Shown here one piece after another: positions 677-16,049 of a stretch of DNA of 64,000 bases. The notes under the pieces are model-generated. The model did not search any database. It worked only from the letters and a program-made list of their open reading frames with translations, and was not told where the DNA came from. This DNA is from an uncultured Bacteroidota bacterium (GTDB taxonomy: Bacteria; Bacteroidota; Bacteroidia; Flavobacteriales; Flavobacteriaceae), in NCBI GenBank assembly GCA_902583445.1, contig CACHVZ010000001.1, positions 62,001 through 126,000 on the forward strand. The letters are read 5' to 3'. How positions within the stretch are numbered: the stretch's first letter is position 1; every line of letters starts with the position of its first letter. The position numbers and the translations under genes are program-made.

Positions 677-1696
677 TTAATTTAATTTTAAATAATCTTT
701 GGTCCAACTTGATATTAACTCGGCCCAATTATCATCATCATTAAGACAAGGAACATATGTATACTCTTCGCCACCTGCTTCTAAGAATTCCTCTTTACCT
801 TCCATTTCAATCTCCTCAAGTGTTTCAAGACAGTCTGTGACAAAAGCTGGAGTAATAATAACTAACTTTTTCTTACCGCTCTTAGCTAGTCTTTCTAATT
901 CACTATCTGTATAAGGCTTCAACCAAGGTTCATTTGGAAGCCTTGATTGAAAGGAGTTACTGTACTTATCCTTTTCAATGTTCAGTTTTTCAGTTACTAA
1001 TCTTGTAGTTTCGAGGCATTGATGTTTATAACATGTTTTGTGTGCTAAAGAATTAACAGAGCAACAATTTTCAACTTTATAACAATGCGAATTTGTTGGA
1101 TCAGAAATTTTTAAGTGACTTACAGGAATTCCATGATATGAAAATAAAATATGATCATACTCGATGTCTTTTATTGAGAAAGAAATTTTTGAAGATAATA
1201 AATCAATATAGTTTGAATTATTGTAAAAAGGAGGGACTATATCGATTTTAATATTTGGAAAATTTTCGTAAACCTCTTCCTTCACCTTCTCAACAACAGT
1301 TTCATAGGATGACATTGCATAGTGAGGATAAAGTGGAAGAACTAAAATATCTTTCACACCATTATCTTCCAATTCTTGGATACCTTTCTTTATGGTTATT
1401 GAACCATATCTCATTGCAAGTGATACGGGAATATCAAGAAGTTTAGTTATCTTATCAAATAGTCTTCTGGATAAAACAATTAATGGTGATCCCTCTTTCC
1501 ACCATATTTTTTTATATGCTTTAGCAGATTTTCTTGGCCTTATATTTAATATTACTAGCTTGACGAGTATCCATCTAAAAATATAACTTTTACCTATGAC
1601 TCTTTTATCCATTAAAAATTCATCGAGATATCTCTTGATGTCAGGAATTGATGTACTGTCTGGAGAACCTAAATTAATTAATAATAATCCTTTCAT
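677..1696 (-). CDS. hemH: Ferrochelatase
   Basis: It inserts ferrous iron into protoporphyrin IX, the last step of protoheme synthesis. The product has 339 residues, normal for the family. The catalytic histidine lies in FSYHGIP (H188). A cysteine-rich stretch follows (C205, C211, C212, C222, C227), ending in the family motif CYKHQCLETTR; such clustered cysteines bind a 2Fe-2S cluster in some ferrochelatases, but that is not shown here. The conserved PAFVTDCLETLEEI segment is at 283-296. The start shares one base with the hemN stop (1696), so the genes look translationally coupled. The neighbouring iron importer would supply the metal. Confidence 0.96.
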   Translation of the reverse strand: MKGLLLINLGSPDSTSIPDIKRYLDEFLMDKRVIGKSYIFRWILVKLVILNIRPRKSAKAYKKIWWKEGSPLIVLSRRLFDKITKLLDIPVSLAMRYGSITIKKGIQELEDNGVKDILVLPLYPHYAMSSYETVVEKVKEEVYENFPNIKIDIVPPFYNNSNYIDLLSSKISFSIKDIEYDHILFSYHGIPVSHLKISDPTNSHCYKVENCCSVNSLAHKTCYKHQCLETTRLVTEKLNIEKDKYSNSFQSRLPNEPWLKPYTDSELERLAKSGKKKLVIITPAFVTDCLETLEEIEMEGKEEFLEAGGEEYTYVPCLNDDDNWAELISSWTKDYLKLN

Positions 1697-3075
1697 TATA
1701 CTGTATTTGAATATGTTCCAACCTTTTGATCTATCATTGGGTCAAATCTCATAGCAATGTTTCGAGTAAATAATCTCCCCTTTTCATTAATGGCTATAAT
1801 ACCTGATTTAAAATTCAATATTCCATCTGAAATAAAATCATCAAGAAGATCTTCTTTAAATTTTACAATTTTATATATGTCAGAAGTAGAGACTTTATAT
1901 TTTTTTGAAATTTTATTTAAATCCACAAAATAATTACACATGATAGAATTAATTATTTCACGAATTATCTTTTGTTCGTTTGTTACTGAATATCCCCTAA
2001 GAACTGCTAGATTATTTTTTTCTATTGAATTAATATATTGACTAGCATTTTTAATATTTTGTATATACGCTGAGTCTAATTGAGAAATTGAAGATGCTCC
2101 AAAGGCATATACCTGTCCAGTTGTTTCCCGTGTACAATATCCCTGAAAATTTCTATGGAGCTGTTTGTTATTTAAAGCAATTGCAAATTCATCTTCGGGT
2201 TTTGAATAATGATCCATACCTATAGATACATATCCAGCTTTTAAAAGTTTCTCATATGCGATTTCGTACATAAGTGCCTTATCACTTGAGCTAGGAAATC
2301 CAATTTTTTCTAATATTTTTTGTCTTGGTAGTACGCTTGGTACATGTGCATATGAAAAAGTAACAACCCTATCAGTATTTAATTTTATTGCTCTGTCTAC
2401 AGTCTCTGAAAAATTTTCCGGTGTCTGATATGGCAGTCCATATACAAGGTCAATATTTGTTCCAGTAAATCCTTCATCTTCAATTTTTTTCACAATTTTT
2501 TCAATTGGGTACTTGGATGGCTTTCTATTTATACCTTCAAGGACATCGGTTCTGAAATCTTGAATTCCAAGTGAGATTCTGTTGAAACCAAACTTTTTTA
2601 ATAGCTCAATATGATTAAATTCTAAGTGAGCTGGATTACATTCAATTGCCATCTCGTAATTAGCAGAGAAATCAAAAGTTTCATAAAGCTTATTGGTAAC
2701 TCTTTCAATATATTTATATGATATAGCATTTGGTGTTCCACCTCCCCAATGAACTTGAGTTAATTTCCTTTTAGAGTCTATCTTTTTTGAGACAAATTCA
2801 ATTTCTTTGATCAAAGCATCAATGTATCTCTCAAGAAATGGTTTTGTAAAACCTGTTTCTGTTGTACAGCCACAAAAATGGCAGATTTGAGGACAAAAAG
2901 GAATATGAATATAGACTGATACACTCTCAGGAGATTCACTGTTTGATAAAATCAACTTTTCAACATAGTCTTCATTACTAAAATTAGTATCAAAAAATGT
3001 AGCTGGCGGATATGAAGTGTATCTAGGGCCAGTTGAGCTATATTTCTTTAATAATTTCTCATCTACTTTACTCAT
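1696..3075 (-). CDS. hemN: Oxygen-independent coproporphyrinogen III dehydrogenase (radical SAM)
   Basis: It decarboxylates coproporphyrinogen III to protoporphyrinogen IX without oxygen, using S-adenosylmethionine radicals. The 459-residue product has the radical SAM signature CPQICHFC (C61, C65, C68) followed by C70, and GGGTP at 111-115 for SAM binding. The N-terminal GPRYTSYP motif and the C-terminal FGASSIS segment separate true HemN from the heme chaperone HemW. It overlaps hemE by 4 bp. No oxygen-dependent HemF is seen in the window, although the next oxidation step uses the oxygen-dependent HemG, so the route mixes both oxygen strategies. Confidence 0.95.
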   Translation of the reverse strand: MSKVDEKLLKKYSSTGPRYTSYPPATFFDTNFSNEDYVEKLILSNSESPESVSVYIHIPFCPQICHFCGCTTETGFTKPFLERYIDALIKEIEFVSKKIDSKRKLTQVHWGGGTPNAISYKYIERVTNKLYETFDFSANYEMAIECNPAHLEFNHIELLKKFGFNRISLGIQDFRTDVLEGINRKPSKYPIEKIVKKIEDEGFTGTNIDLVYGLPYQTPENFSETVDRAIKLNTDRVVTFSYAHVPSVLPRQKILEKIGFPSSSDKALMYEIAYEKLLKAGYVSIGMDHYSKPEDEFAIALNNKQLHRNFQGYCTRETTGQVYAFGASSISQLDSAYIQNIKNASQYINSIEKNNLAVLRGYSVTNEQKIIREIINSIMCNYFVDLNKISKKYKVSTSDIYKIVKFKEDLLDDFISDGILNFKSGIIAINEKGRLFTRNIAMRFDPMIDQKVGTYSNTV

Positions 3076-4100
3076 GCTCTATTCCAATTTTTATTTTTTA
3101 TCCATTCAACTACAAACTTTACTTTTTTATGGTCTATATCAGGCAGAAAACCATGACCTAGATTAAATATCCAATCAAAATTTTGATTGCCAAAATTAGT
3201 CAAAGTATTTAAATAGGTTTCAATTTTTTTATAGTCCTCATAAAATATTCTGGGATCCATATTTCCTTGAATACCGATTTCATTATTTAGTATTTCTCTT
3301 GCATGAAAAATTGATGTATGCCAATCTATACTAACATAATCACATATATCTTTACCAATATAACTTATACCAAAACCAAAATCTTTAGGAAAAAAAATTG
3401 TTGGACAATTTTCTTTCTTTGCAGTAGTTAGAATTCTTTTTGCATATGGAAGTATTAAATCTACATATAATTCATATGGAATGGAGCCACAATAAGTTTC
3501 AAAAAGCTGAAAAACATCAATACCAGCTTTACACTGACCTTTTACATAATCAATGGATGATTCTGTTATAAGTTCAAGAATCTTTTTACTCTCCTCTCTA
3601 TTTTCATATAAATATTTAATTGCTTTTTTCATATGATCTTTTGATCCTTCTCTCTTAAACATGAAAAGAAAAACAGTTAGTGGTCCACCGCAAAAACCAA
3701 TTAATGGAGTATTTTGATTCTTATCCGATTGAACTTGTTTGATATTATTATATATGTAATTCAACTTACTTGAATCAAATTCCAAATCAGCTGCTTTTGA
3801 ATTAAAATTTAATGGATTGTTAAAAATAGGACCAGTTTTTTTGAACTCAACATCAAGACCTAATGCATGTGGAATTACCAATATATCGCTAAATAAAATT
3901 GCAGCATCAACATTCAAATCTTGTATTGGTAGTAATGTAACTTTAGAAGCAAGATCTTTATCATTCATTAGTTCATGGAATGTGTATGACTCTTTAAGTT
4001 GCATATAATTTGGAAGTATCCTCCCAGCTTGTCTCATAAACCATACAGGAGGTCTATTTGTTTTTTCACCATTTAAAGTTCTGATTAATATTGAATCCAT
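3072..4100 (-). CDS. hemE: Uroporphyrinogen III decarboxylase
   Basis: It removes four carboxyl groups from uroporphyrinogen III to give coproporphyrinogen III. The 342-residue protein has the family N-terminal signature RPPVWFMRQAGRILP (about residues 17-31) with its conserved arginines, and FSDILVIPHALGLDVEF (about 90-106) with the catalytic aspartate. The C-terminal LGHGFLP motif is also present. The product feeds the adjacent hemN gene. It is separated from the hemL stop by no bases and overlaps hemN by 4 bp. Nothing is unusual. Confidence 0.96.
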   Translation of the reverse strand: MDSILIRTLNGEKTNRPPVWFMRQAGRILPNYMQLKESYTFHELMNDKDLASKVTLLPIQDLNVDAAILFSDILVIPHALGLDVEFKKTGPIFNNPLNFNSKAADLEFDSSKLNYIYNNIKQVQSDKNQNTPLIGFCGGPLTVFLFMFKREGSKDHMKKAIKYLYENREESKKILELITESSIDYVKGQCKAGIDVFQLFETYCGSIPYELYVDLILPYAKRILTTAKKENCPTIFFPKDFGFGISYIGKDICDYVSIDWHTSIFHAREILNNEIGIQGNMDPRIFYEDYKKIETYLNTLTNFGNQNFDWIFNLGHGFLPDIDHKKVKFVVEWIKNKNWNRA

Positions 4101-5384
4101 TTAGTTTAATTTTTTTAGTGAATCTAGATTACTTTCAATTATATTATCAATATCTTTTTGATCGATTTTATTTGATAAAAACATACACTCATATTGAGAT
4201 GGGGGAAGATATATTCCTCTCTTTAACATATAATGAAAGTATTTTGAATATAATTCTGTATTACAATCTTGTGCGTCACTAAAATTTTCGATTTTTTGTT
4301 TTTTTGAAAAAAATAATGTCATCATAGATCCTACTCTAGCTATATTTGCGCTTACACCAGTCTTATCAATATTTTTATTTATTCCATTCTCGATTTTTGA
4401 TGAGATTATCTCTAAGTCTTTATAAACTTGATCGTCGAGCCTGTTCAATACACTGAGCCCAGCAGCCATTGCAAGAGGATTACCCGATAAGGTTCCAGCT
4501 TGATAAACTGGACCGTCAGGTGCTACGTGATCCATAACTTCTTGACTACCGCCGTATGCTCCTGCAGGTAAACCACCTCCTATAATTTTTCCTAAAGTTG
4601 TAAGATCAGGTTTTACTCCGTAAAGTTCTTGTGCACCACCTTTTGATACTCTAAATCCACTCATAACTTCATCAAAAATCAAGAGAGTATCATTCTCATC
4701 ACATAAAACCCTTAATTCATTCAGAAAATTTTTATTTGGTTTGACCAAGCCCATATTTCCAGCAATAGGCTCTATAATAACTGCAGCAATTTTATTTTTA
4801 TTTTTTTTAAAAAGTTCATTTACAGAATCAATATTATTAAAGTCTGCAACTAATGTATCTCTTGCAATATTATCAGTTACCCCTTGACTGTCAGGCTTTC
4901 CTAAAGTCATAGCACCTGAACCTGCTCTTATTAAAAAACTATCAAAGTGTCCGTGATAATTTCCAGAGAATTTTATAATGAGATCTTTCCTTTTATATCC
5001 TCTTGCTAATCTGATTGCACTCATTGTTGCCTCTGTACCTGAGCTTACCATTCTTACTTTTTCTATAGAAGGGACCATATCGATTATCTTTGATGCCATT
5101 AGGGATTCAATTTCTGTAGGTGCGCCATATGTTGTTCCTCTTTTCGAGTACTCAATTATAGAATCAATTGTGGCTTTTTCAGCATGCCCAAAAATAAGGG
5201 GACCCCAAGATCCAACACAATCTATATATTCGTTATCATCAATATCATTCATCTTACTTCCTTTACCACTTTTAAAAAAAATAGGAGTTGAATTTACACT
5301 TCTGAAGGCTCTAACTGGAGAGTTTACTCCACCAGGTATAATTTTTTTTGCCTTATTGTACGCTTCTATACTTTTACTAAACAT
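4101..5384 (-). CDS. hemL: Glutamate-1-semialdehyde 2,1-aminomutase
   Basis: It converts glutamate-1-semialdehyde, made by HemA, to 5-aminolevulinate with pyridoxal phosphate. I chose ATG 5384 (MFSKSIEAYNKA) over the longer frame starting at 5423, because this N-terminus matches the family and the start lies one base beyond the hemB stop. That gives 427 residues. The PLP lysine is K266 in TTLGKIIGGGLPAGA, and the PLP-ring aspartate lies in IFDEV (238-240). The SSGTEATMSAIRLAR segment (114-128) binds the cofactor phosphate. It is embedded in the heme operon, between hemB and hemE. Confidence 0.96.
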   Translation of the reverse strand: MFSKSIEAYNKAKKIIPGGVNSPVRAFRSVNSTPIFFKSGKGSKMNDIDDNEYIDCVGSWGPLIFGHAEKATIDSIIEYSKRGTTYGAPTEIESLMASKIIDMVPSIEKVRMVSSGTEATMSAIRLARGYKRKDLIIKFSGNYHGHFDSFLIRAGSGAMTLGKPDSQGVTDNIARDTLVADFNNIDSVNELFKKNKNKIAAVIIEPIAGNMGLVKPNKNFLNELRVLCDENDTLLIFDEVMSGFRVSKGGAQELYGVKPDLTTLGKIIGGGLPAGAYGGSQEVMDHVAPDGPVYQAGTLSGNPLAMAAGLSVLNRLDDQVYKDLEIISSKIENGINKNIDKTGVSANIARVGSMMTLFFSKKQKIENFSDAQDCNTELYSKYFHYMLKRGIYLPPSQYECMFLSNKIDQKDIDNIIESNLDSLKKLN

Positions 5385-5385
5385 T

Positions 5386-6366
5386 CTATTTATTTGATAA
5401 TATTTTAGCGATCTCTTCTGCATTATATGTTATAATTGCTGAAGCTCCTGCACGCTTTATTGCATAAAGTATTTCCATTGTAAGTTCATACTCATCCACC
5501 TGATTATTTTCAGCGGCAGATTTAACCATAGCATATTCCCCACTAACATTATATGCTATTATTGGAATATTAAAATTTTCTTTGGCTTTTGATATAATAT
5601 CTAAGTAAGCTAGAGCAGGTTTTATTATTATTGCATCACATCCTTCATTTATGTCGTACTCTATTTCCCTTATAAACTCATTAGTATTTTTAAAATTCAT
5701 TTGATGGGTTTTTCTGTCTCCAATTTCTAATTTGCTATCAACAGCGTTTCTGAATGGACCATAAAATGATGATGCATATTTAACTGAATATGGGAAAATT
5801 GGTATTTTTTCAAATCCATTCATATCTAAAGTATCTCTTATTCTTTGAACTCTTCCGTCCATCATATCAGAAGGGGCTAAAATATCTGCTCCAGATTTTA
5901 CAAGAGTTAATCCCTGACTTGATAATGTTTTTAAAGTTTCATCATTATCAACATCATTATCTATAATTGTTCCGCAATGTCCATGAGAAGTATAGCTGCA
6001 ATTACATAAATCTGCAATTATTAAAATTTCGTCTTTAAACCTTTCTTTAATTGCTTTAATAGTAATTGGGACAATACTATCGCTTGAACATGCAATCTCC
6101 CCGTTGCTGTCTTTTTTATCTGATACCCCAAATAATAGTATAGATTTAATTCCAAGCTTAATTAATTGTTCACATTTTTCAATTACATTGTCAGTTGAAA
6201 GTCTATATTGTCCTTTAAGAGACTCTATTTCATCCTTTACATTATTGCCTTCACATACAAAAATTGGATATATTAAATCAGAGATATTTATTTCGACATC
6301 CTGAACAAGCGATCTAATGTTTTTGTTATATCTAAGCCTTCTTAATCTGGATTCAGGATATTTCAT
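5386..6366 (-). CDS. hemB: Delta-aminolevulinic acid dehydratase (porphobilinogen synthase)
   Basis: It condenses two 5-aminolevulinate molecules to porphobilinogen. The 326-residue product has both Schiff-base lysines: K196 in YSVKYASSFYGPFRNA and K249 in IIIKPALAYLD. The metal site reads DLCNCSYTSHGHCG, with C121, C123 and C131. This is the cysteine-rich zinc-type site rather than the aspartate-rich magnesium type. The gene overlaps the 3' end of hemD by 14 bp and is followed almost directly by hemL, which supports one transcript. Confidence 0.96.
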   Translation of the reverse strand: MKYPESRLRRLRYNKNIRSLVQDVEINISDLIYPIFVCEGNNVKDEIESLKGQYRLSTDNVIEKCEQLIKLGIKSILLFGVSDKKDSNGEIACSSDSIVPITIKAIKERFKDEILIIADLCNCSYTSHGHCGTIIDNDVDNDETLKTLSSQGLTLVKSGADILAPSDMMDGRVQRIRDTLDMNGFEKIPIFPYSVKYASSFYGPFRNAVDSKLEIGDRKTHQMNFKNTNEFIREIEYDINEGCDAIIIKPALAYLDIISKAKENFNIPIIAYNVSGEYAMVKSAAENNQVDEYELTMEILYAIKRAGASAIITYNAEEIAKILSNK

Positions 6367-7066
6367 AATTTAAATTTTTATTTAAAAAATTAATAATTGA
6401 ATTGCTTATTCCTTCGTAGGACTGCATTTTAGCTGTTACCAGTGGTTTATAACCTCTTCCTTCAATATATTCTGTTGTGGTATTACCAATACTGATTATC
6501 TTATCATTAGGGTTGTATTTATTAATGAATGATTCAAAAGTTGATGGGCTCGTAAATACTGTAAAGGTATTTTCATACTCTAATAAATTTTTAATCTCAT
6601 GATTGACTTGATCTATTAATGAGGTTTCATAAAAAATACCTTGTTCTATGTTAATAAACTTTGATAGACAATCAAACAAATCTTTTTTTGCTAAGTTCCC
6701 TTGGGCAAGAAGAATTTTTGATTCCGTTTTTAAATCAAGCGCTCTTATGTCTTCACACATAAATCTCGAGTAGTTTCTTTTCAAGATATAGTCAGCTTGA
6801 AAATTATATTTTGCAAGTTTATCTGCAGTCTTTCTTCCAATGCATATAAAGCCTAATGCATCATCAATTTTTGCAGTTAAGTTATTCATGAAATATTTCA
6901 CTCCATTTTTTGATGTAAATATTACATATTGAAAGTTATTGGGGTTAATAGAGTTGATAATCTTAGATGTTGATATCATCGGGTAATGATAAATATCTAC
7001 ACCCATTGATTTAAGTTCTGAAAAATTAAAATCAATTTCCTCTCCAGTCAATATAATATTATACAT
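6353..7066 (-). CDS. hemD: Uroporphyrinogen-III synthase
   Basis: It cyclises hydroxymethylbilane with inversion of ring D to give uroporphyrinogen III. This family is poorly conserved. The call rests on the two-lobed pattern with VIFTSKNGVKYF in the first lobe, an ICIGRKTADKLAKY segment, SKILLAQGN, then VFTSPSTFESF and IISIGNTTTEYIEGRGY, together with its place between hemC and hemB. I prefer ATG 7066 (MYNIILTGEE), which overlaps the hemC stop by 1 base, over a start five codons upstream. The length of 237 residues is usual. Confidence 0.88.
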   Translation of the reverse strand: MYNIILTGEEIDFNFSELKSMGVDIYHYPMISTSKIINSINPNNFQYVIFTSKNGVKYFMNNLTAKIDDALGFICIGRKTADKLAKYNFQADYILKRNYSRFMCEDIRALDLKTESKILLAQGNLAKKDLFDCLSKFINIEQGIFYETSLIDQVNHEIKNLLEYENTFTVFTSPSTFESFINKYNPNDKIISIGNTTTEYIEGRGYKPLVTAKMQSYEGISNSIINFLNKNLNYEIS

Positions 7067-7067
7067 A

Positions 7068-7994
7068 CTATTCAAAATCAAATTTTTTAATTAATTCTTT
7101 TCCTCCATTTTCTAAAATCTTATTTGCTAACAGATTATCTAAATCTACATTTTCATTTTTGTTAGCCTCGGCTTTATCTTTTATTAAAACCTTACCGTCT
7201 AATGATAATACGGCTCCAATCAAGCATATTTTATCTCCATTTACACTGGAGAAGGCTGCTATTGGTGAGTTGCATCCTCCACCTAACTTATCCATAAATG
7301 ATCTCTCAAGAAATGTACATCTCTCAGTCTCTTCATGATTTATTTTGCAAATAATTTTATCTATTTCAGATTTATCTGAGTTTATTTCAATTGCAATTGC
7401 TCCTTGACCTGGTGCATTAAGCATTATTTCGACATCAAGGTATTCAGATATATAACCTTCAAGACCTAATCTTTCTATACCAGCAGCTGCCATAACAAGC
7501 CCATCATATTCACCATTTATCATTTTTTTAATTCTAGTGTCAACATTTCCTCTAATATCCTTAACTGTTAGATTTGGATTAATGTTTAATAACTGTGCTT
7601 TTCTTCTTAAAGATGAAGTTCCAATTATTTCATTTTTAGTAAACTCTGAGAGTTTTTTTTTACTTCGACTCAAAAAAACATCTTTGTGATTACCTCTCTC
7701 TAAAATTGCTGAGGTTTTTATAATCGAGGAATTTTCAACTGGTAAGTCCTTTAAACTGTGTACAGCTATATCTATTTTTTCTTCAATTAATGAGTCTTGA
7801 ATTTCTTTAACAAAGAACCCTTTATCTATGCTCCTGTCGAGATTTCTATCCTGAATCTTATCTCCTTTTGTTTTTATTTCAACAATTGAATAATCAATGT
7901 TAGGAAATTTTTTCTTAAGGTTTTCTCTAACTAGATTTGCTTGATACAATGCAAGTTTGCTTGAGCGAGTTCCGATTTTTATTAGATTAATCAT
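7068..7994 (-). CDS. hemC: Hydroxymethylbilane synthase (porphobilinogen deaminase)
   Basis: It polymerises four porphobilinogens into hydroxymethylbilane. The 308-residue product carries the dipyrromethane-cofactor cysteine C241 in LGGGCNSPIAAF. The catalytic aspartate is D83 in HSLKDLP, and the arginine-rich cofactor-contact region includes GTSSLRRKAQ (125-134) and DIRGNVDTR (147-155). It overlaps hemA by 8 bp, so the two are probably translationally coupled. Nothing is atypical. Confidence 0.96.
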   Translation of the reverse strand: MINLIKIGTRSSKLALYQANLVRENLKKKFPNIDYSIVEIKTKGDKIQDRNLDRSIDKGFFVKEIQDSLIEEKIDIAVHSLKDLPVENSSIIKTSAILERGNHKDVFLSRSKKKLSEFTKNEIIGTSSLRRKAQLLNINPNLTVKDIRGNVDTRIKKMINGEYDGLVMAAAGIERLGLEGYISEYLDVEIMLNAPGQGAIAIEINSDKSEIDKIICKINHEETERCTFLERSFMDKLGGGCNSPIAAFSSVNGDKICLIGAVLSLDGKVLIKDKAEANKNENVDLDNLLANKILENGGKELIKKFDFE

Positions 7995-9261
7995 CTAAAA
8001 AGATTTGATTAATAATCTCAATAGCTTTTTCATCTTTACCATTGTTACTTGCTTCTTTTATTTTTCTAACTAAATTGTCAGAGAACTTTTCATAAATTTT
8101 ATTAAGCTTCTCATTAAATTCATCGGAATTAACTATGTTAGAGTTACAATCACATGAGGAAGAGTTAATATTGTTAATAGTCTCCTCAACAACAACATCC
8201 TTTATTTGATTTTTGATTGAAAGTATGGAAGGTCTTAGTTGCCTTGAATTTGTCCAATCATCGAAATCAGATAAAAAATCATCAATAAATTTTTCTGCTT
8301 TTTTGACTTCTGCTTTTCTTTTTTTGTAGTTTACGTTTACAACATCTTTGAGACCATCTACGTTAATTAGCTTCACATTTCCTATTTTATTACATGAGTC
8401 AGGAATATTCCTTGGGACAGAAAGGTCTATCATAAGAAGTTCGTTGTCTCTTTCGCTCATTATCTTTTCAACCTCATTCTTACTTAGTAAAGGATTTTTT
8501 GAGGATGTCGAAAAAATAGCAACATCTACTTTTTTAAGTTCCTCTTTAAATGAGCTAAAGTCTACCGAGCTATAGCCAAGTTCACTTGCAAATTCACTAG
8601 CCTTTTTGTTTGTCCTGTTGGTAATTTTCAAATTGGGGTATCCTTTTTGATGTAAGTGTCTAATAGATAATTGAGATGTTTCACCTAAACCGACACAAAG
8701 AAATTTTGGATTGCTTATATTCAGATCTTTATGGATCTTCTCTACTGCAGCGTAACTAACCGATACAGCACCTTTACCAATTTTAGTGTTTGTTCTAATA
8801 AACTTACCAGTTTCCAATGATTTCTGGAACATTCTTTTTAAAATAGGACCTAACATTTTGTGCTTGTATGAGAAATCATAAGCATCCTTCAACTGCTCAA
8901 CTATCTGAAATTCGCCAATTATCATAGATTCGAGCCCAGATACTAATCTAAATAAATGTTTTGAAACTTTATAGGAACCAGACACCATCATAAGGTGAGG
9001 AGATATAGAATCTTTAAACTTTCTAAAATCTGCTAACTCTTTAACAATACTGTGTATGAACTTATTTTCTTTTCCAATGTGATTCTCAAATTCAAAGTAT
9101 ATCTCTGTTCTATTACATGTTGATAATAACATTAGACCTTCTACACCAACATTCTTTTTAAGTAAATTGTGAAATACAATTTTATCTGCATTATCGAGAT
9201 AGAATTTCTCACGAAGATCGAGAGGGGCATTTTTAAAATTTAGACTTATTAAACCAATCAA
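7987..9261 (-). CDS. hemA: Glutamyl-tRNA reductase
   Basis: It reduces glutamyl-tRNA(Glu) to glutamate-1-semialdehyde with NADPH and is the committed, usually regulated, step of the C5 heme pathway. The 424-residue product shows the catalytic cysteine C49 in STCNRTEIYFE, the signature GLESMIIGEFQIVEQLKDAY near 109-128, and an NADPH-binding fold around FLCVGLGETSQLSIRHL. The start is TTG at 9261; no in-frame ATG fits the family N-terminus. It is the first gene of the heme operon. Two TAAATTTG boxes lie within 40 bp upstream and a 19-bp palindromic operator-like box lies 91 bp upstream, so iron-dependent control is likely. Confidence 0.95.
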   Translation of the reverse strand: MIGLISLNFKNAPLDLREKFYLDNADKIVFHNLLKKNVGVEGLMLLSTCNRTEIYFEFENHIGKENKFIHSIVKELADFRKFKDSISPHLMMVSGSYKVSKHLFRLVSGLESMIIGEFQIVEQLKDAYDFSYKHKMLGPILKRMFQKSLETGKFIRTNTKIGKGAVSVSYAAVEKIHKDLNISNPKFLCVGLGETSQLSIRHLHQKGYPNLKITNRTNKKASEFASELGYSSVDFSSFKEELKKVDVAIFSTSSKNPLLSKNEVEKIMSERDNELLMIDLSVPRNIPDSCNKIGNVKLINVDGLKDVVNVNYKKRKAEVKKAEKFIDDFLSDFDDWTNSRQLRPSILSIKNQIKDVVVEETINNINSSSCDCNSNIVNSDEFNEKLNKIYEKFSDNLVRKIKEASNNGKDEKAIEIINQIFLDD

Positions 9262-9285: not shown

Positions 9286-9351
9286 ATTTTACAAATTTAC
9301 AAATAATAACGCTAAAGGTTCTAAAAGTATTGTTTGAAGTTCTCAGTACTA

Positions 9352-9370
9352 ATATAGAATTGTTCTAAAT
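9352..9370. promoter_or_regulatory. 19-bp palindromic operator-like box upstream of hemA
   Basis: The sequence ATATAGAATTGTTCTAAAT matches the window consensus ATTTAGAA-nnn-TTCTAAAT at 15 of 16 arm positions. It lies in the 148-bp gap between the DUF393 gene and hemA, about 91 bp before the hemA start. The same box occurs at the iron-uptake promoters nearby, so I infer that the same regulator controls heme synthesis. Its distance from the proximal -7 box leaves activation or a second promoter open. Confidence 0.6.
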
Positions 9371-9409
9371 AGTTGCTAAAAAATATCGTTATAGGTTCAT
9401 AAGTTTTCC

Positions 9410-9805
9410 TTATTCTATGATTCTGCTTTTTAAATCTCCATTAATTATAGGGCATGACTCATATTTTCCAAAAAATTTATACCTGGTAAATGCTACGATA
9501 TCATAAGCAATATTTGATATAAAGGTGGGTAGTATCAGTATTAAGATTCTTATTATAAAAAGCATTTTTACTATTCTCAAGATGTAAAAAACTGCTTTGC
9601 TTTTTTGCAATATAGTACCATCTTTTTTTATTACAGCAACAGAATCAACTTTCAGTACATCTGGGTAGTGAGTTTTTGTAAAATTACTCTGTAGACTAGT
9701 TACATTAAAATGTTCATCTTTGTCTTTATTAAGAATCAACCGAATAAAGAAATTACAAAGTACACATATGCCATCATAGATAATAATTTCACGTTCTTGA
9801 TTCAT
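9410..9805 (-). CDS. DUF393 (DCC family) thiol-disulfide oxidoreductase-like protein
   Basis: A 131-residue protein of the DUF393 family, whose hallmark is an N-terminal DxxCxxC motif in a thioredoxin-like fold. Here it reads YDGICVLCN with C14 and C17. Hydrophobic segments around 75-100 (MLFIIRILILILPTF) suggest membrane association. The true start is probably ATG 9805 (MNQEREIIIYDG), six codons inside the longest frame. It lies on the same strand between the TonB receptor and hemA and could be co-transcribed with either. The substrate is unknown; a redox role in metal or heme handling is only suggested by position. Confidence 0.82.
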   Translation of the reverse strand: MNQEREIIIYDGICVLCNFFIRLILNKDKDEHFNVTSLQSNFTKTHYPDVLKVDSVAVIKKDGTILQKSKAVFYILRIVKMLFIIRILILILPTFISNIAYDIVAFTRYKFFGKYESCPIINGDLKSRIIE

Positions 9806-9844
9806 AGCTACCCAAAAGTACAAGAATTTTTAATTCATAAAAAA

Positions 9845-12058
9845 TTAAAATCGATATTCAAAGCCAGCATAAATTCCGAAAGGATGGCCTGGTCTTAATC
9901 CTGCAGGAGCCCTTGAAACTGCATAATTTTTATCAAAAAGGTTTAACATTTTTGTTCTAAATGTAATATTTGAATTTAAATTATATCTAAAGGATATATC
10001 AAAAATTAAATAAGAAGGTATCTCAACTGAACCATTTGCAACGGTTGAATATTTTCCATTATAATTTCCACTTAAATTAATTTCATATTTATCAGACTGA
10101 AAGCTTATTGAGGAATTTAATTGATGTTGAGGTATATATGGAATCCTATCACCATTATTAACTTCTCCCCATATATCTTGGGTGCTTCCAAAATTGCTTT
10201 GAAATTTTGCATTAGTAAGAGTATAGGAAAGCGAAAAAGGAATAGAAAGTTCATTACTTTCTAATAAATTAGTTCTCAATAAAAATTCAAATCCGTTTAC
10301 TAAAGCTTTACCGGCATTAAAGGGATCCTGCTCTCCAAAACCTCCTGTTGCTGCAAGATCATTACCTAATAGGTTGGTATAGTTATTTTGATAGAAAATC
10401 AATTCTGAATTTATGTTTTTATATGATAGTCTAGTTCCTATCTCTAGATTAACACTCTCCTCAGCTTTTTGTCCAACTGAACTTCCTGGAGGTGAATACC
10501 CCTTGTGTAGTCCTCCAAACATAGAAATTTTATTATTAAAGCTGTAATTTATCCCAATACCGGGTATAAATACTGAAACCTTATTCTGTCTATTTGATAC
10601 CTCATCTTTATTTCTTAGAGGATTTGATTTACCATAATCATCTCTCTCTAACTTTATAGATTCATACCTTATTCCTGGGGTAATCGTTAATCTTTTTGAT
10701 TTGTATTTATACATAATATATGAAGCAAATGAGTTAGCAGAGCTTATTCTATTGCCCTGCGATCCTCTATCTCCATACTCACTGAGTGACAAGAACCCAT
10801 TATTTATATTATATATATCTTCCCACTGAAATCTATCTTCTTCATCATAATGAAACCTAAAACCAATTTCTAAGTCATTGAATGACTCATTTTTCCCATA
10901 CCAATGATAATCAATTTTTGTTTGAACTCCTTTAGACAAATACTCTCTATTATTAGCTTTAACTTTTAAAGAATTATCGGTTTCATTTAACTCTCCTCTT
11001 ACAAGTGAGATATGTCCTGAGTATTGATTTGGGTTTGACAATACCTTTGAAATTTTTTGTGAATCTCCATTATAAACTATATCATCGAGTTTATACCAAT
11101 TTCTTTTAAAACCGTTATGGTAAATATTAGATGTAATTTTAAACCTTTCAGAGAGATTTAATTGATGAGTGATTAAATACTGTGTATGTTCTGCATCCAT
11201 TTTATCTTTTTCTGAACCGGGATATCTTAATAAAGGATTTATATCAAAATCATCTTCTGTTAGACCTAAATAAGTTTCATTTGATATTTCATCATAATAA
11301 TGAAACTTAAATTCTAAACTCTGGGATATTAATAATTGATCTGAGCTATTAAGTCTGATCTTTGATGTTATTTCATTTATATCAAATCCAGTATTTAAGT
11401 TATTACCTAATGCTTTAAATCCATCTGAATTATAGTTTAAATACTCAATCATATATCCAAAATTATCGAAACTATTACCAAATGTTGAATGAAGTTGACC
11501 TGTGTCAAAGCTACCATAACTGGTTGTAATTTTTCCCTTGAAAGATTCTGGTATTTCAGTTGAAACAAAGTTTATAGCTCCGCCGGTTGTATATGGTCCG
11601 TATTGAATTTGACTACTACCTTTTAGAACTTCAACAGCTTGCATCCTAGCTACTGATGGAAAATAGTAAGCAGATGAAGCACTGTAAGGGGCTGGTGAGA
11701 TTAATATACCATCCTCCATTATTGCAATTTTTGAACTTCTTTCAGGTGAAGTACCTCTTATACTAATATTAGGCCTAAGCCCAAAACCATCCTCTTCATA
11801 AAAATTAATACCTGCAATCTTATTTAATGCTCTATGAATATCAGAGAAGTTAAATTCAGCTAGCTCAGTGGTTGATAAAAAATATGCAGCTCCAGTCCTA
11901 TTTTTTGCAACAAATTTATTTCCAAGTATTGTATTTGGTTTAATAATAACTTCATCAAGAGCAGTTATTGAATCAATTTTTAATTGATTTTGTTCTTGAT
12001 TTTGTGAGTATGACAATAATGTAGAAATTAACGTTAGGGTAAATACTATTTTTTTCAT
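9845..12058 (-). CDS. TonB-dependent outer-membrane receptor, probably ferric-chelate (FecA-like)
   Basis: A 737-residue outer-membrane protein with an N-terminal signal peptide (about 1-18). A plug domain spans about 40-155, including the IRGTSPERSSKIAIMEDGI and EVLKGSSQIQYGPYTTGGA segments, and a 22-strand-type barrel ends in a terminal aromatic residue (YRF). It should bring an iron chelate into the periplasm using TonB energy. The plug and barrel resemble ferric-citrate type receptors. It is divergent from a ferric-iron ABC importer, and the 197-bp gap between them carries three copies of the 19-bp box, which supports an iron-repressed uptake locus. The exact siderophore cannot be read from sequence. 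Confidence 0.88.
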   Translation of the reverse strand: MKKIVFTLTLISTLLSYSQNQEQNQLKIDSITALDEVIIKPNTILGNKFVAKNRTGAAYFLSTTELAEFNFSDIHRALNKIAGINFYEEDGFGLRPNISIRGTSPERSSKIAIMEDGILISPAPYSASSAYYFPSVARMQAVEVLKGSSQIQYGPYTTGGAINFVSTEIPESFKGKITTSYGSFDTGQLHSTFGNSFDNFGYMIEYLNYNSDGFKALGNNLNTGFDINEITSKIRLNSSDQLLISQSLEFKFHYYDEISNETYLGLTEDDFDINPLLRYPGSEKDKMDAEHTQYLITHQLNLSERFKITSNIYHNGFKRNWYKLDDIVYNGDSQKISKVLSNPNQYSGHISLVRGELNETDNSLKVKANNREYLSKGVQTKIDYHWYGKNESFNDLEIGFRFHYDEEDRFQWEDIYNINNGFLSLSEYGDRGSQGNRISSANSFASYIMYKYKSKRLTITPGIRYESIKLERDDYGKSNPLRNKDEVSNRQNKVSVFIPGIGINYSFNNKISMFGGLHKGYSPPGSSVGQKAEESVNLEIGTRLSYKNINSELIFYQNNYTNLLGNDLAATGGFGEQDPFNAGKALVNGFEFLLRTNLLESNELSIPFSLSYTLTNAKFQSNFGSTQDIWGEVNNGDRIPYIPQHQLNSSISFQSDKYEINLSGNYNGKYSTVANGSVEIPSYLIFDISFRYNLNSNITFRTKMLNLFDKNYAVSRAPAGLRPGHPFGIYAGFEYRF

Positions 12059-12090
12059 AATTTTCGTTGTGTTTAATTCATGTTTTACAC

Positions 12091-12109
12091 ATTTAGAGCG
12101 GTCCTAAAT
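12091..12109. promoter_or_regulatory. 19-bp palindromic operator-like box (receptor side)
   Basis: ATTTAGAGCGGTCCTAAAT matches 14 of 16 arm positions of the consensus. It begins 33 bp before the TonB receptor start, where a repressor would overlap the promoter of that gene. Confidence 0.55.
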
Positions 12110-12151
12110 AGTCTTTAGAAATAATAAATCTTCATATTAAGATTTGTCACT

Positions 12152-12170
12152 ATTTAGAACCGTTCTAAAT
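12152..12170. promoter_or_regulatory. 19-bp perfect palindromic operator-like box
   Basis: ATTTAGAACCGTTCTAAAT has perfect 8-bp arms around CCG and defines the consensus. It is the middle of three boxes between the divergent receptor and importer genes. Confidence 0.68.
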
Positions 12171-12196
12171 TATACCCTTTCAAATATAAATAATTT

Positions 12197-12215
12197 ATTT
12201 AGAATAGTTCTAAAT
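12197..12215. promoter_or_regulatory. 19-bp perfect palindromic operator-like box (importer side)
   Basis: ATTTAGAATAGTTCTAAAT has perfect 8-bp arms around TAG. It lies 41 bp before the start of the ferric substrate-binding lipoprotein and is the best candidate operator for the importer operon. Confidence 0.68.
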
Positions 12216-12255
12216 AAGAGTATTTTTTTTAATATTGTTGTCTTAAATAGTTTTT

Positions 12256-13275
12256 ATGAAAAAAATAGTATCACTTTTATTCTTATTTATAATTGGATGT
12301 TCTGAGATTCAGGACGAGATGATAGTTAATATATATAGTCAAAGACATTATGATGTAGATCAGTTACAGTATGATAATTTTGAGAAGGAAACTGGAATTA
12401 AAGTAAACGTATTAAAATCAAATGCAGATGAACTTTTGCAAAGAATGAAAAATGAAGGAGAAAGTAGTCCAGCTGACTTATTTATAACTGTTGATGTTGG
12501 AAAGTTATGGCAAGCTTCTGATATGGGATTACTACAAAAGTATAAGGATAATTCTCTGACTGATGGAATTACAGAAAGTCTTTTAGATAAAAATGGCTAT
12601 TGGGTTCCTATAACTTATAGGTCAAGAATAATTGTTTATAGTAATGAAAGAGTGCAAGAAAATGAGTTAACTACATATGAAGGTCTTGCAGATAGTAAAT
12701 GGAAAGGTAGAATTTTAGTTAGATCTTCATCTAATTCATATAACCAAGCTTTATTATCATCACTAGTTGCTAATCTTGGTGAAGAGGATACACAGTCCTG
12801 GACTAATGCACTTGTTTCTAATTTTGCCAGAGACCCTAAAGGAAATGATAGAGATCAAGTAAAGGCAATTGCTGCTGGCCAGGGAGACATAGCAATTGTT
12901 AACTCATATTATATCGGACTGTTATTGTCTTCAGAAAATGAAGAGGAGATTAATGCTGGCAAAGCAATATCAGTTTTCTTTCCAAATCAAGCTGAAGGTG
13001 AAAGAGGATCTCACATAAATGTTTCAGGAATTGCATTGGCGAAGAATTCTCCAAATAAGTCTAATGCTCTTAAGTTGATAAAATACTTGACAAGTGATGA
13101 TGCTCAAAAAACATATGTAAATAATACATTTGAATATTCCGTAAAACCAAATATTGAACCTAATCAAATTGTAAAAGGTTGGGGAAGTTTTAAAATAGAT
13201 CCACTTGACCTAAATATGTTGGGGCAAAAGAGAAAAACTGCGGTTAGTATATTTGACACTGCAGGTTGGAAATAA
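12256..13275 (+). CDS. Ferric iron ABC transporter substrate-binding lipoprotein (FutA/FbpA-like)
   Basis: A 339-residue periplasmic binding protein that should capture ferric iron and deliver it to the permease encoded next. A lipobox IIGC places the lipidated cysteine at C15. The family's iron ligands are visible: Tyr in the NIYSQRHYD segment (Y27, Y32) and the paired tyrosines of NSYYIG (Y218, Y219). The RSSSNSYNQALLSS segment (157-170) is also characteristic. It starts a three-gene operon (12256-15826) and sits 41 bp downstream of a perfect 19-bp box. Specificity for iron rather than another cation or sulfate is inferred from the tyrosines and the context. Confidence 0.92.
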   Translation: MKKIVSLLFLFIIGCSEIQDEMIVNIYSQRHYDVDQLQYDNFEKETGIKVNVLKSNADELLQRMKNEGESSPADLFITVDVGKLWQASDMGLLQKYKDNSLTDGITESLLDKNGYWVPITYRSRIIVYSNERVQENELTTYEGLADSKWKGRILVRSSSNSYNQALLSSLVANLGEEDTQSWTNALVSNFARDPKGNDRDQVKAIAAGQGDIAIVNSYYIGLLLSSENEEEINAGKAISVFFPNQAEGERGSHINVSGIALAKNSPNKSNALKLIKYLTSDDAQKTYVNNTFEYSVKPNIEPNQIVKGWGSFKIDPLDLNMLGQKRKTAVSIFDTAGWK

Positions 13276-13293
13276 ATTATATAAGCTCGAATA

Positions 13294-14874
13294 ATGAGTG
13301 TTAAATCATTAACATTAATAATCTCAGTTATATTAATATGTCCATTGATATACTTAATCTATAGTGTTTTTGGTTTAAACCTTGATAATTTTATCTATTT
13401 ATGGAACAACCTTCTTCTTAACTACTCTTTTAACACTTTGTATCTGGTTATCCTTACTTCAATTTTTTCTTTGATACTCGGGGTAATTCCAGCATGGTTT
13501 ATCTCAACTTCGGATTTTAAAGCAAAACCCCTTTTTGATATATTTTTGTTTCTTCCACTAGCTATACCGTCTTATATTATAGCATTTACATATAGTGACA
13601 TATTGAGTTACACTGGACCACTGCAAAGTTTAATTAGAAAGTCTTATCCAAGTATTTACCCATATTTTAATCATGACTATCTTCAAATTGAAATTTTATC
13701 AGTCTTGATGGCTCTTGTTTTATACCCATATATTTATACTGCATGTAGAATCTCATTTTCTCTAATTGGATCTAACTATATAAAAATTGCTAGGAATCTT
13801 GGGATGTCTCAACTAAAAACTTTTTTTAAAATTATAATTCCAATTTCAAGAGTATCAATTTTTTCAGGTCTTTTTTTAGTGATTATGGAAGTTCTAAATG
13901 AATATGGTGCAGTTAAATATTTTGGAGTTAACACCTTTACAAGTGGAATTTTTAGATCATGGTACTCAATGGAAGACGTTAATACTGCCTCAATACTTGC
14001 AGTCTGTTTATTAATAATTGTTTCGTTTTTTTTCATTCTAGAGAGATATTCAAGTTCTAGATACAATTATAATTATAAACCAAATGATGATACATCAGGC
14101 AATTACAGTTTAAGTAAATCATCAAAGGGTCTTATTTATTTTATATGTTTAATTCCTTTCTTACTTGGATTTTTTATACCTGTAATTTATATTCTAAGAA
14201 ATACCATTGACACATTTGCTTCAGTAGATCTTAATGAGTTATCTACTTTATCATTTAATTCATTTTTTTTAGCTTTAATTTCATCTTTTATAATCTTAAT
14301 AATCGCAATTCTATTTCAATTTTTTAAAAAAATATCAAAAAGTAAAACCATATTCTTTTTCAGTGAAATAGTTTCTTTAACCTACGCACTTCCTGGAGCA
14401 GTAATTGCATTATCACTAATTCTTATTATTTCTGCATTTTCAAATATTTTTGGAATCTCAATTATGTTTGGCTCACTAACTGTACTTGTATATGCATATG
14501 TAATGAGATACATGGCAGTTGGAATATCTCCTTTGAAATCTAGTTTTGAAAAACATCCTGAATCATTTGATCAAACAGGAAGAAACCTGGGTATGACCAA
14601 CTACAAAATTTTTAGTAAGATTCATTTACCAATTAATAAGACCTCTATCTTAATTGCATTTATTTTATGTTTTGTTGACATAATAAAAGAGCTCCCAATT
14701 ACACTTATACTTAGGCCATTTAATTTTGATACACTAGCTGTGAAAACATATGAATACGCAATTGAAGAGATGATTGCAAAATCATCTATATACTCTCTAG
14801 TAATAATTTTATTTGGTACGGTATTATTAATATTTTTGAGGAAAATAATCAATAAGAGTATTAATGTATCTTAA
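13294..14874 (+). CDS. Ferric iron ABC transporter permease (fused double-domain, FbpB-like)
   Basis: A 526-residue inner-membrane permease with two homologous halves, as in FbpB/SfuB-type iron permeases. Each half has several predicted transmembrane helices and an ATPase-contact loop: ARNLGMSQLKTFFKIIIPI near residue 165 and GRNLGMTNYKIFSKIHLPI near 429. It lies 18 bp after the binding protein and overlaps the ATPase gene by 11 bp, so the three are one operon. The arrangement of one permease with two halves implies that it works as a single chain with two ATPase copies. Confidence 0.92.
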   Translation: MSVKSLTLIISVILICPLIYLIYSVFGLNLDNFIYLWNNLLLNYSFNTLYLVILTSIFSLILGVIPAWFISTSDFKAKPLFDIFLFLPLAIPSYIIAFTYSDILSYTGPLQSLIRKSYPSIYPYFNHDYLQIEILSVLMALVLYPYIYTACRISFSLIGSNYIKIARNLGMSQLKTFFKIIIPISRVSIFSGLFLVIMEVLNEYGAVKYFGVNTFTSGIFRSWYSMEDVNTASILAVCLLIIVSFFFILERYSSSRYNYNYKPNDDTSGNYSLSKSSKGLIYFICLIPFLLGFFIPVIYILRNTIDTFASVDLNELSTLSFNSFFLALISSFIILIIAILFQFFKKISKSKTIFFFSEIVSLTYALPGAVIALSLILIISAFSNIFGISIMFGSLTVLVYAYVMRYMAVGISPLKSSFEKHPESFDQTGRNLGMTNYKIFSKIHLPINKTSILIAFILCFVDIIKELPITLILRPFNFDTLAVKTYEYAIEEMIAKSSIYSLVIILFGTVLLIFLRKIINKSINVS

Positions 14875-15826
14875 CATTCAAAAACTAGTTAAATATTACA
14901 ATAAGGATAATCCGATTATTAAAGAATTGGATTTCTCTGTTAAAAAAGGTGAGTTTGTTTCTTTTATAGGTGAAAGTGGTTCAGGGAAAACAACATTTCT
15001 TAAATGTTTAGCAGGTCTTGAAAAAATAAACTCAGGAATAATAACTCTAAACAATAAGATTTTAAATGATAAAGATATATTTATAAAACCTCATCTTAGA
15101 AAAATTGGTTTTATTTTTCAAGATTACCCATTATTCCCTCATTTAAATACTTTAAATAATATTAAAATAAATTTAAATGAATCCTATTTTGCAAATATTG
15201 ATTACTATTTAGACTTAATGGGATTAAGTAATCTTTTGAAAAGATTTCCTCATGAATTATCAGGAGGAGAGCAACAAAGAGTTTCAATAGCAAGAGCCCT
15301 TGTAAGAGAGCCTGATCTTCTTTTAATGGATGAGCCATTTAGTAATCTAGACTCTGCTATTAAATCCAAGATTCAGAATGAGATTTATAAGATTTTAAAA
15401 AAAACCAACACAACAACTATTCTTGTAACTCATGATATTAAAGATACTTTTGACATTTCTGATAAGCTACTAGTTTTTAAGGCAGGAATAGCTCAACAAT
15501 TTGATAATCCAGAGGAGATGTATTGTAACCCTGCAAATTGTTACTGCGCAAAAATCCTTGGAGAGCTCAATCAGATTCAAATTGAAAATAAGGATTTTTA
15601 CATTAGACCTGAAAAAATAAAAATCGTTAAAGATTCTAAGTATAAAGTGAAGGTTGAAAAAATTTCTTTTATTGGTAAAGAGTACAAAATCGAGGCTACT
15701 TTAAATGGTGATATAATTCACTTCTTTAGTAACAACAATATTTCAAGTTCTAACGACTTATTTATTGATTTTAACAAAAATGATTTATTAGAATTTGATA
15801 AAAGGTGTAGTAACTACTTCACATAG
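14864..15826 (+). CDS. Ferric iron ABC transporter ATP-binding protein (FbpC-like)
   Basis: A 320-residue ATPase that powers the adjacent ferric permease. It has Walker A GESGSGKTT (36-44), a Q-loop in IFQDYPLFPHL, the signature LSGGEQQRVSIARAL, Walker B LLLMDEPFSNLD and the switch histidine VTHD. A C-terminal domain of about 90 residues after the nucleotide-binding core resembles the regulatory OB-type extensions of this subfamily. The start ATG at 14864 lies inside the permease reading frame. Two box-like palindromes occur just after its stop but appear to serve the next small gene. Confidence 0.93.
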   Translation: MYLNIQKLVKYYNKDNPIIKELDFSVKKGEFVSFIGESGSGKTTFLKCLAGLEKINSGIITLNNKILNDKDIFIKPHLRKIGFIFQDYPLFPHLNTLNNIKINLNESYFANIDYYLDLMGLSNLLKRFPHELSGGEQQRVSIARALVREPDLLLMDEPFSNLDSAIKSKIQNEIYKILKKTNTTTILVTHDIKDTFDISDKLLVFKAGIAQQFDNPEEMYCNPANCYCAKILGELNQIQIENKDFYIRPEKIKIVKDSKYKVKVEKISFIGKEYKIEATLNGDIIHFFSNNNISSSNDLFIDFNKNDLLEFDKRCSNYFT

Positions 15827-15840
15827 AATATTGATATCTT

Positions 15841-15859
15841 ATTTATAACCATTATAAAT
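15841..15859. promoter_or_regulatory. 19-bp perfect palindrome, variant iron-type box 1 of 40-aa gene
   Basis: ATTTATAACCATTATAAAT is a perfect palindrome with 8-bp arms around CCA. It differs from the window consensus by a symmetric G-to-T change in each arm. It lies 68 bp before the 40-codon Cys/His-rich gene. Confidence 0.5.
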
Positions 15860-15874
15860 TACTGTAAATGAGTA

Positions 15875-15893
15875 ATTTATAATCATTCTAAGG
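15875..15893. promoter_or_regulatory. 19-bp variant box 2 of 40-aa gene
   Basis: ATTTATAATCATTCTAAGG matches 13 of 16 consensus arm positions and lies 34 bp centre to centre from box 1. It ends 33 bp before the small gene. The right half of box 1 and the left half of box 2 also form a 13-bp inverted repeat (15851-15883). Confidence 0.45.
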
Positions 15894-15926
15894 TTTATTT
15901 GCACTAATTTTATAAAAAATATAAAG

Positions 15927-16049
15927 ATGATTCAAACAGTTAATACATGCGTAAATTGTACAAACATGACAGAGTCATTAGTCTGTGCAAAACATAATGT
16001 GAAGGTTGAAGTTAATAATATATGTGGTGATCACGTTGTTATTGATTAA
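15927..16049 (+). CDS. 40-residue Cys/His-rich putative metal-binding protein
   Basis: A short open frame of 40 codons that I do not recognise as a named family. Its cysteines and histidines are regularly placed: C8-V-N-C11, then C20-A-K-H23, then C33-G-D-H36. The spacing CxxC-x8-CxxH-x9-CxxH could hold one or two zinc or iron ions, or a small Fe-S site. There is no signal peptide or hydrophobic segment, so it should be cytoplasmic. It follows the ferric importer and is preceded by two 19-bp boxes of the putative iron regulon. Coding is supported by the dense ligand pattern and placement; function is unknown. Confidence 0.68.
   Translation: MIQTVNTCVNCTNMTESLVCAKHNVKVEVNNICGDHVVID

Follow-up and report, generated by a model that had tools for sequence, protein, structure and literature searches.

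A conserved 19-bp palindrome, probably a Fur box, links iron import genes and the alternative complex III operon in an uncultured Flavobacteriaceae bacterium and its relatives

Introduction

We analysed 64,000 nucleotides of contig CACHVZ010000001.1 (positions 62,001 to 126,000 of assembly GCA_902583445.1), hereafter the window, from an uncultured member of the Flavobacteriaceae (order Flavobacteriales). Copies of one 19-bp palindrome lie in the window beside hemA, an fbp-type import locus, a gene for a 40-residue Cys/His protein, and the operon for alternative complex III (ACIII), which is described as replacing the bc1 complex in organisms that lack the latter (PMC8552683). Here we report which regulator probably reads this palindrome, how far it is conserved, and how its placement differs between promoters.

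Results

Features of the window

The heme cluster (677-9261) comprises hemA, C, D, B, L, E, a radical-SAM gene and hemH, hemC and hemD being named by eye. The features used below are as follows, copies of the palindrome being called boxes.

7987-9261, minus strand: hemA, first gene of the heme cluster (TIGR01035 above its cut-off)
9352-9370, minus strand: box upstream of hemA, 1 mismatch (same place in 8/8 genus hemA loci)
9845-12058, minus strand: TonB-dependent receptor, siderophore type (best match TIGR01783, below that model's cut-off)
12091-12109, unstranded: box between the receptor and fbpA, 2 mismatches (pattern search, locus comparison)
12152-12170, unstranded: box, perfect palindrome (box with at most one mismatch at this place in 12/14 fbpA loci)
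12197-12215, unstranded: box, perfect palindrome, ending 14 bp before the fbpA -7-like element TAATATTG (12230-12237)
12256-13275, plus strand: fbpA-like periplasmic binding protein (no NCBIfam model above its cut-off)
13294-14874, plus strand: fbpB-like ABC (ATP-binding cassette) permease (family searches)
14864-15826, plus strand: fbpC-like ABC ATPase (family searches)
15841-15859, unstranded: first box of the small Cys/His gene, 2 mismatches (same place in 16/18 orthologous loci; not L033, L034)
15875-15893, unstranded: second box of that gene, 3 mismatches (18/18 loci), ending 11 bp before the -7-like element TAATTTTA (15905-15912)
15927-16049, plus strand: 40-residue Cys/His protein, one-repeat form of a two-repeat family of 77-82 residues
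41425-41829, minus strand: divergent SPOR-domain gene (Pfam match), rival target of the box at 41846
41846-41864, unstranded: box upstream of actA, 1 mismatch (pattern search, cross-family comparison)
41910-41917, plus strand: actA -7 element TAAATTTG, 45 bp after the box
41985-43232, plus strand: actA, multiheme cytochrome c subunit of ACIII (family search, operon context)
43213-53043, plus strand: actB-actF and cytochrome oxidase subunits II and I (Pfam domains)

The palindrome matches the published Fur box

The window was searched with the pattern ATTTAGAA-N3-TTCTAAAT, mismatches being counted over its 16 positions and up to three allowed. All seven palindromes listed in a preliminary description of this DNA were recovered, and all seven lie between open reading frames (ORFs), as had been claimed. 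The two perfect palindromes have 0/16 mismatches. Ten matches were found in the window against 4.8 expected, a number reached by 4 of 100 shuffles; the remaining three (29845, 41583 and 48750, the last at a gene start) fall in ORFs and were taken as chance. In the draft genome (1.02 Mb, 27 contigs, 73% complete) the same threshold gave 102 matches against 100 for a reversed control, so that weak matches mean nothing by themselves and the pattern at three mismatches was rejected as a genome-wide finder. The signal lies in the strong matches: the window holds 4 of the 5 places in the genome with at most one mismatch and 6 of the 11 with at most two. The decisive support for the sites comes from their conservation between species, described below.

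Five places with at most two mismatches lie outside the window, one intergenic (L010), one over a gene start (L005) and three inside ORFs (L008, L009, L011). The intergenic one (1501-1519 of L010; G000:C11:13113-13131) carries two mismatches and lies about 53 bp upstream of a gene whose Pfam match is ResB-like and which is likely a further regulon member outside the window. The site in L005 (1501-1519; G000:C2:133425-133443) has one mismatch and overlaps the beginning of a small ORF that follows a COX15-like gene, named by eye.

Both the type of site and its regulator are already known. The palindrome equals the Fur box predicted for Riemerella anatipestifer, 5'-ATTTAGAATTATTCTAAAT-3', which is accompanied by a table of 11 sites and by electrophoretic mobility shift assays (EMSA) on four promoters (PMC5609570); the rhuB box of that species, ATTTAGAATTATCCTAAAT, was also assayed by EMSA with Fur (PMC10986502). 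The printed form is not uniform, an Escherichia coli-type sequence being given instead in another paper of the R. anatipestifer field (PMC7976709). When the window was ranked with a matrix built from the 11 published boxes, the sites at 41846, 12197 and 15841 came 1st, 2nd and 4th, and those at 9352, 12152 and 15875 came 11th, 12th and 17th. Rank 3 went to the match at 41583, inside an ORF, and the site at 12091 was outside the best 25 window matches.

The draft genome contains one Fur gene (PF01475, 91.9 bits; cut-off 23.1) and 0 matches to the DtxR family (PF01325), an absence that is weak alone at 73% completeness. The preliminary description had left the regulator open; this is superseded by the identity of the motif with the published Fur box, the single Fur gene and the lack of a DtxR-family match. 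Exactly one Fur was found in 22 of 25 genomes of the genus. A Fur match was found in 54 genomes altogether, and the protein was aligned in 30 loci: the HDH motif and EFCDPR are invariant in all 30, the winged-helix protein carries the regulatory His, Glu and HDH ligands, YRVSRAT(L/I)YN is kept in 28/30, and purA lies directly downstream in 29/30. The solved chains that best match the organism's Fur are themselves Fur proteins. Its sequence reads HDHLIITDTGE and has no CxxC structural zinc motif, which several relatives keep; some accepted Fur proteins lack CxxC, and its absence is not taken as excluding Fur. Autoregulation is unsupported, a three-mismatch site standing near the fur start in 2/30 loci; as a control, these 30 loci hold 7 sites in 100 kb. 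In Flavobacterium psychrophilum, attempts to delete fur were unsuccessful (PMC9331221).

A box at stepped distances upstream of actA

The operon downstream of the box at 41846 has the composition of an ACIII operon: a multiheme c-type ActA, an iron-sulphur ActB (Fer4 at the actB position), an NrfD-type ActC (PF03916), ActD (PF11821) and ActE (PF13442 cytochrome), followed by PF00116 COX2 and PF00115 COX1; the actF position gave no Pfam match. For locus comparison, loci were oriented so that the gene reads forward and searched at up to three mismatches. Within the order the box was present in 49 of 50 actA loci (29/29 in a first set and 20/20 in a more distant one), spanning 27 genera and 12 families; the exception, G051, has neither box nor Fur. 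One locus at a contig end (L122) was dropped and G038, with a partial actA match, was left out. The first set holds 29 sites in 11.6 kb of upstream DNA against 5 in 113.9 kb elsewhere in the same loci. A further sample took a single genome per family from 32 families beyond the order, together with 8 additional genomes of the window's family; 31/40 of these regions had a site, against a shuffled mean of 1.15 and maximum of 6. Among the 32 families, 20 have a box at a measurable gap from the -7 element TANNTTTG, 2 a box without TANNTTTG, 1 a misplaced site and 9 none. With 13 fresh families, described below, 45 families outside the order were covered, one genome each, among the matches listed; 28 of the 45 have a box at a measurable gap.

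The gap between box and TANNTTTG is not continuous. Over all lineages it is 42-47 bp in 37, 55-58 bp in 17 and 34 bp in 2, one further lineage being ambiguous (22 or 44). By genus within the order (26 measurable), it is 44-47 bp in 22, 56-57 in 3 and 34 in 1; in the window's genus, the gap of one locus (L124) is 11 bp longer. The first spacing set, of 49 lineages (26 genera, 3 further genera of the window's family and 20 families), gave 34 bp in 2, 42-47 bp in 36 (mean 45.4, standard deviation 1.0) and 55-57 bp in 11 (mean 55.8), and 48/49 values fall within 2 bp of 34.5, 45.5 or 56. The steps of about 10.5-11.4 bp correspond to one helical turn. A fresh test on the 13 remaining listed families found a box with at most two mismatches in 8 and none in 5; the gaps were 44, 55, 55, 55, 56, 56 and 58 bp, and the eighth family (f29) has TANNTTTG at 22 and at 44 bp. 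Neither spacing set contains a gap of 35-41 or 48-54 bp. The gap statistics exclude L117, L221, f17 and f61, which have no TANNTTTG, and f73 with its misplaced site; for f18 the first of two TANNTTTG was used, and in L223 a second, promoter-overlapping site was set aside. The lineages are related, so a simple p-value does not apply, and the point is that changes occur in one-turn steps. Comparison of equal-length spacers across genera of the order gave 42% identity, and 30% after shuffling; the -7 element and ATG are separated by distances of 20 to 170 (standard deviation 35). The box lies upstream of the promoter and not over it, at a constrained position, as at Fur-activated promoters, and the one-turn steps suggest that Fur acts from upstream, probably as an activator.

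Two further observations concern this region. The second site of L223, with one mismatch, overlaps the actA promoter and may reflect dual control. In many loci of the family (L114-L143) a conserved TTTCTAAAAT-like stretch lies between the box and the actA -7 element and is perhaps the site of another regulator.

Boxes abutting the promoters of fbpA and the small Cys/His gene

At fbpA a site was found in 14/14 loci with upstream sequence, two others (L038, L047) having been dropped at contig ends that lack it; these loci hold 36 sites in 4.2 kb upstream and 2 in 53.6 kb elsewhere. The last box ends 14-17 bp before TAATATTG in 12/14 loci. The substrate of the fbpA-like protein is presumably iron. 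Upstream of the small ORF, 18/18 loci have a site (34 sites in 5.4 kb against 7 in 49.9 kb elsewhere), and the last box ends 11 bp before the -7-like element in 17/18. The -7-like elements at both genes were allowed one mismatch to TANNTTTG, and further such matches occur nearby. Here the box abuts the promoter and the -33 region falls inside it, a geometry resembling that of ordinary Fur repression. Two arrangements, which the preliminary description had missed, can be distinguished from the sites' positions: boxes that abut the promoter at fbpA and the small ORF, and a box set far upstream in helical steps at actA. Between 15841 and 15893 the two boxes of the window are 34 bp apart, and their 15-bp spacer, TACTGTAAATGAGTA, is nearly invariant in the genus and partly palindromic.

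By its codon pattern (606 synonymous against 291 nonsynonymous differences) the 40-residue ORF is a real gene; it has matches in 15 of 24 genus relatives, G020 having a longer form. It contains CxxC, CxxH and CxxH motifs and corresponds to the first half of a family of 77-82 residues with two four-Cys repeats, whose invariant residues are C9, C12, C21, C34, C49, C52, C60 and C72. Of 296 genomes sampled from the order, 19 carry the family, that of the window among them; it also occurs in named genera, including Maribacter, Nonlabens, Winogradskyella and Aquimarina. An fbpC-like gene precedes the family member in 6 of 17 loci inspected, and other loci have neighbours that resemble TonB receptors, a Fur gene, a flavodoxin or a PepSY protein (all by eye, from first residues). 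A box lies at most 200 bp upstream in 34 of 52 rows of the two-repeat form and in 48 of 66 rows over the whole small family, some genomes being counted twice. No Pfam or NCBIfam family matched the protein, which shows its family to be absent from these two collections. An AlphaFold model from 31 sequences was poor (mean pLDDT 42.3). The protein may have a metal-handling or redox role under iron starvation. The family is a concrete candidate among iron-starvation genes.

The hemA box

The hemA box was found within 300 bp in 21 of 30 loci (8/8 in the genus, 13/22 in more distant lineages), which hold 21 sites in 9 kb upstream against 3 in 115 kb elsewhere; these cover 30 of 31 matching genomes, G052 having matched without giving a locus. 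In all 8 genus loci the box lies 66-67 bp before TANNTTTG, with a further TANNTTTG at 52 or 82 bp in some, and in the 13 distant loci the distance to the -7 element is 131-133 bp in 9 and 57-67 bp in 4. These gaps may follow a ladder of the actA type; the independent lengths are too few to claim it. In several other genera of the family the box adjoins a divergent AraC-like gene, sometimes followed by hemH (names by eye); the box might serve there to repress araC-hemH or to act on hemA.

A conserved element, approximately AACGATAC-N10-TTTAGCGTTATT, lies between the hemA box and promoter (9305-9334 in the window; many family loci among L051-L075, by eye) and may be bound by the AraC-like regulator whose gene diverges from hemA in other genera. 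At E <= 1e-20, only 7 of 24 genus relatives gave a hemA relative; drafts with a listed completeness of 92-95% are among those lacking one, a pattern suggestive of patchy heme auxotrophy. The hemA of the window is 25-32% identical to matches outside the genus.

Discussion

Expression data and the direction of control

In Elizabethkingia anophelis, iron-rich cells show 4.1-8.6-fold higher expression of a quinol:cytochrome c oxidoreductase cluster (PMC7221216). That paper labels the cluster bc1; from its subunit names we read it as ACIII, and so read it is suggestive agreement with activation of ACIII by iron-loaded Fur. For R. anatipestifer CH-1, PMC5429918 reports some cytochrome genes lowered by iron limitation, its account naming no ACIII in the parts available. 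In strain YM, RAYM_00020, ACIII-like by name, falls on iron loss (-1.01), with further values of -3.47 and -2.23 in a table whose blank cells make the columns hard to assign (PMC5609570 Table 2). Strong plasmid expression of actA appeared lethal in Flavobacterium johnsoniae (PMC8552683), which fits tight control. 

Alternative explanations

Chance matches in AT-rich DNA would account for a genome count level with its control at three mismatches, yet the strong matches cluster in the window and orthologous promoters keep boxes where the rest of the same loci does not; the comparative counts already refute chance for the reported sites, and we give it practically no weight. Binding of the palindromes by a DtxR/IdeR/MntR-type regulator is very improbable. 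The site length and the TTTAG..CTAAA arms do resemble DtxR-type sites, and PF01325 is matched in most relatives outside the genus (28/35); within the genus a match occurs in 1/25 genomes, yet the boxes are kept, and the EMSA published for the same motif used Fur (PMC10986502, PMC5609570). With no match in the 73% complete genome itself and one among the 25 of the genus, DtxR/IdeR was rejected as the regulator. Slimmer still is the chance that some sites are read by another iron regulator of the Bacteroidota, for which the MerR-like MliR, described in the marine flavobacterium Bizionia as an activator of iron homeostasis (PMC9478572), is an example: Fur is already linked to this motif, and none like it is met in the available parts of that paper.

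At actA two further explanations bear on what Fur does there. If all sites were ordinary repressor sites, the box at 41846 would serve the SPOR gene and ACIII would respond to iron by other routes. A SPOR-like gene is indeed usually divergent from actA and adjoins in most loci inspected (by eye, except for the window's own with its Pfam match), and within the genus 20 bp separate the end of the box from the SPOR -7 element, a plausible occluding position. Elsewhere that gap is 32-35 or 43 bp or there is none, with one locus at 12 or 33, whereas the actA side keeps its helical ladder; moreover, 4 of 20 loci (L215, L218, L221, L225; by eye) have another gene in place of SPOR and still keep the box. 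Because the SPOR gap is inconstant and the box persists without the gene, the box is most likely that of actA, though it may serve both genes; SPOR was rejected as main target, and the repressor-only explanation is unlikely. A stronger competitor, which we nevertheless hold to be the lesser possibility, is that Fur at actA works indirectly, by displacing another repressor or positioning a second activator without touching RNA polymerase. Anti-repressor action of Fur is on record for ftnA and gonococcal norB (PMC3788343), and the TTTCTAAAAT-like stretch between box and -7 element could hold the second protein; outside the family that stretch is unrecognisable by eye in most spacers, and the ladder still holds there.

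Several results weigh against activation of actA by Fur. Among the matches listed, a search of 400 bp gave no box in 14 of the 45 families beyond the order; f73 has a misplaced one, and f17 and f61 have a box and no recognisable -7 element. Most boxless families tested for Fur do have Fur, and one family (f43) has a box while no Fur was found. Over 36 genomes, the 13 fresh families excluded, both Fur and box occur in 24, Fur without a box in place in 8 (one Fur match partial), a box without Fur in 1 and neither in 3, a weak association with a trend in the right direction (Fisher p = 0.076). The 58-bp gap of the fresh set is at the edge of the ladder, and in f29 the first TANNTTTG stands at 22 bp, only the second at 44. 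Finally, the value of -3.47 for RAYM_00020 seems to be a fall on iron loss in the fur mutant, and an iron response that persists there would mean that Fur is not the only iron input (PMC5609570).

A proposed iron switch

With these points weighed, we consider it probable that the palindromes are Fur boxes bound by the single Fur found in this marine flavobacterium when it carries iron, and that this Fur at actA most likely activates the ACIII operon. Iron-loaded Fur would bind the palindromes; at the promoter-abutting boxes of fbpA and the small Cys/His gene it would repress, and at actA, where the box precedes the -7 element by about 45 bp and keeps to one face of the helix, it would activate an iron-rich respiratory operon when iron is plentiful. 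The sites, their conservation, the spacing ladder and the presence of Fur are directly observed; binding by this Fur, repression and activation are what we would expect from them. The preliminary description had placed ferric import, heme synthesis, the small protein and the cytochrome operon under one regulator: a single conserved motif does link import, hemA, the Cys/His gene and the ACIII operon, and its binding by Fur is a prediction. The wider proposal is somewhat favoured over its denial: throughout the class, iron-loaded Fur would be a direct, helix-phased activator of ACIII, the ladder reflecting contact with polymerase at a -33/-7 promoter, and would also control the small four-Cys-repeat proteins, which may handle metal under iron starvation.

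If so, one protein would turn iron import off and an iron-rich respiratory chain on, which bears on the trade-off between iron uptake and respiration in iron-limited marine flavobacteria. Our literature searches found no paper tying ACIII to Fur; as far as they show, what is new is that a helix-phased Fur box accompanies ACIII in many families of the class. Direct activation by Fur is rare and debated, and a switch kept across families with helical spacing would make it testable in a genetically tractable species.

Comparison with known systems

The closest known system is the Fur regulon of R. anatipestifer, which has the same 19-bp consensus, sites before TonB-dependent receptors and Fur with EMSA (PMC5609570, PMC10986502). 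It differs in that the 11-site table of PMC5609570 names no ACIII, hemA or small Cys/His gene, and that the available text of that paper describes no upstream activating geometry. The E. coli-type Fur box, GATAATGATAATCATTATC, is likewise 19 bp long and AT-rich, and its central AATnATT recurs in several sites here; its arms are GATAAT/ATTATC, whereas those of the window are ATTTAG/CTAAAT. In CRP class I activation the activator site occupies several positions, one turn apart, upstream of -35. The site positions at actA are stepped by the helical turn in the same way; the regulator and the promoter type (-33/-7) are different, and contact with polymerase is for actA a hypothesis. Finally, PMC3788343 describes activation by Fur, of debated mechanism, for three Neisseria genes, norB, aniA and nuoA, whose boxes lie about 100 bp upstream of the start site. 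Those genes share with actA a Fur box upstream of a respiratory-gene promoter, activated there by iron-loaded Fur; at actA the boxes lie about 45, 56 or 34 bp from the -7 element, in helical steps and across many families, and activation is predicted.

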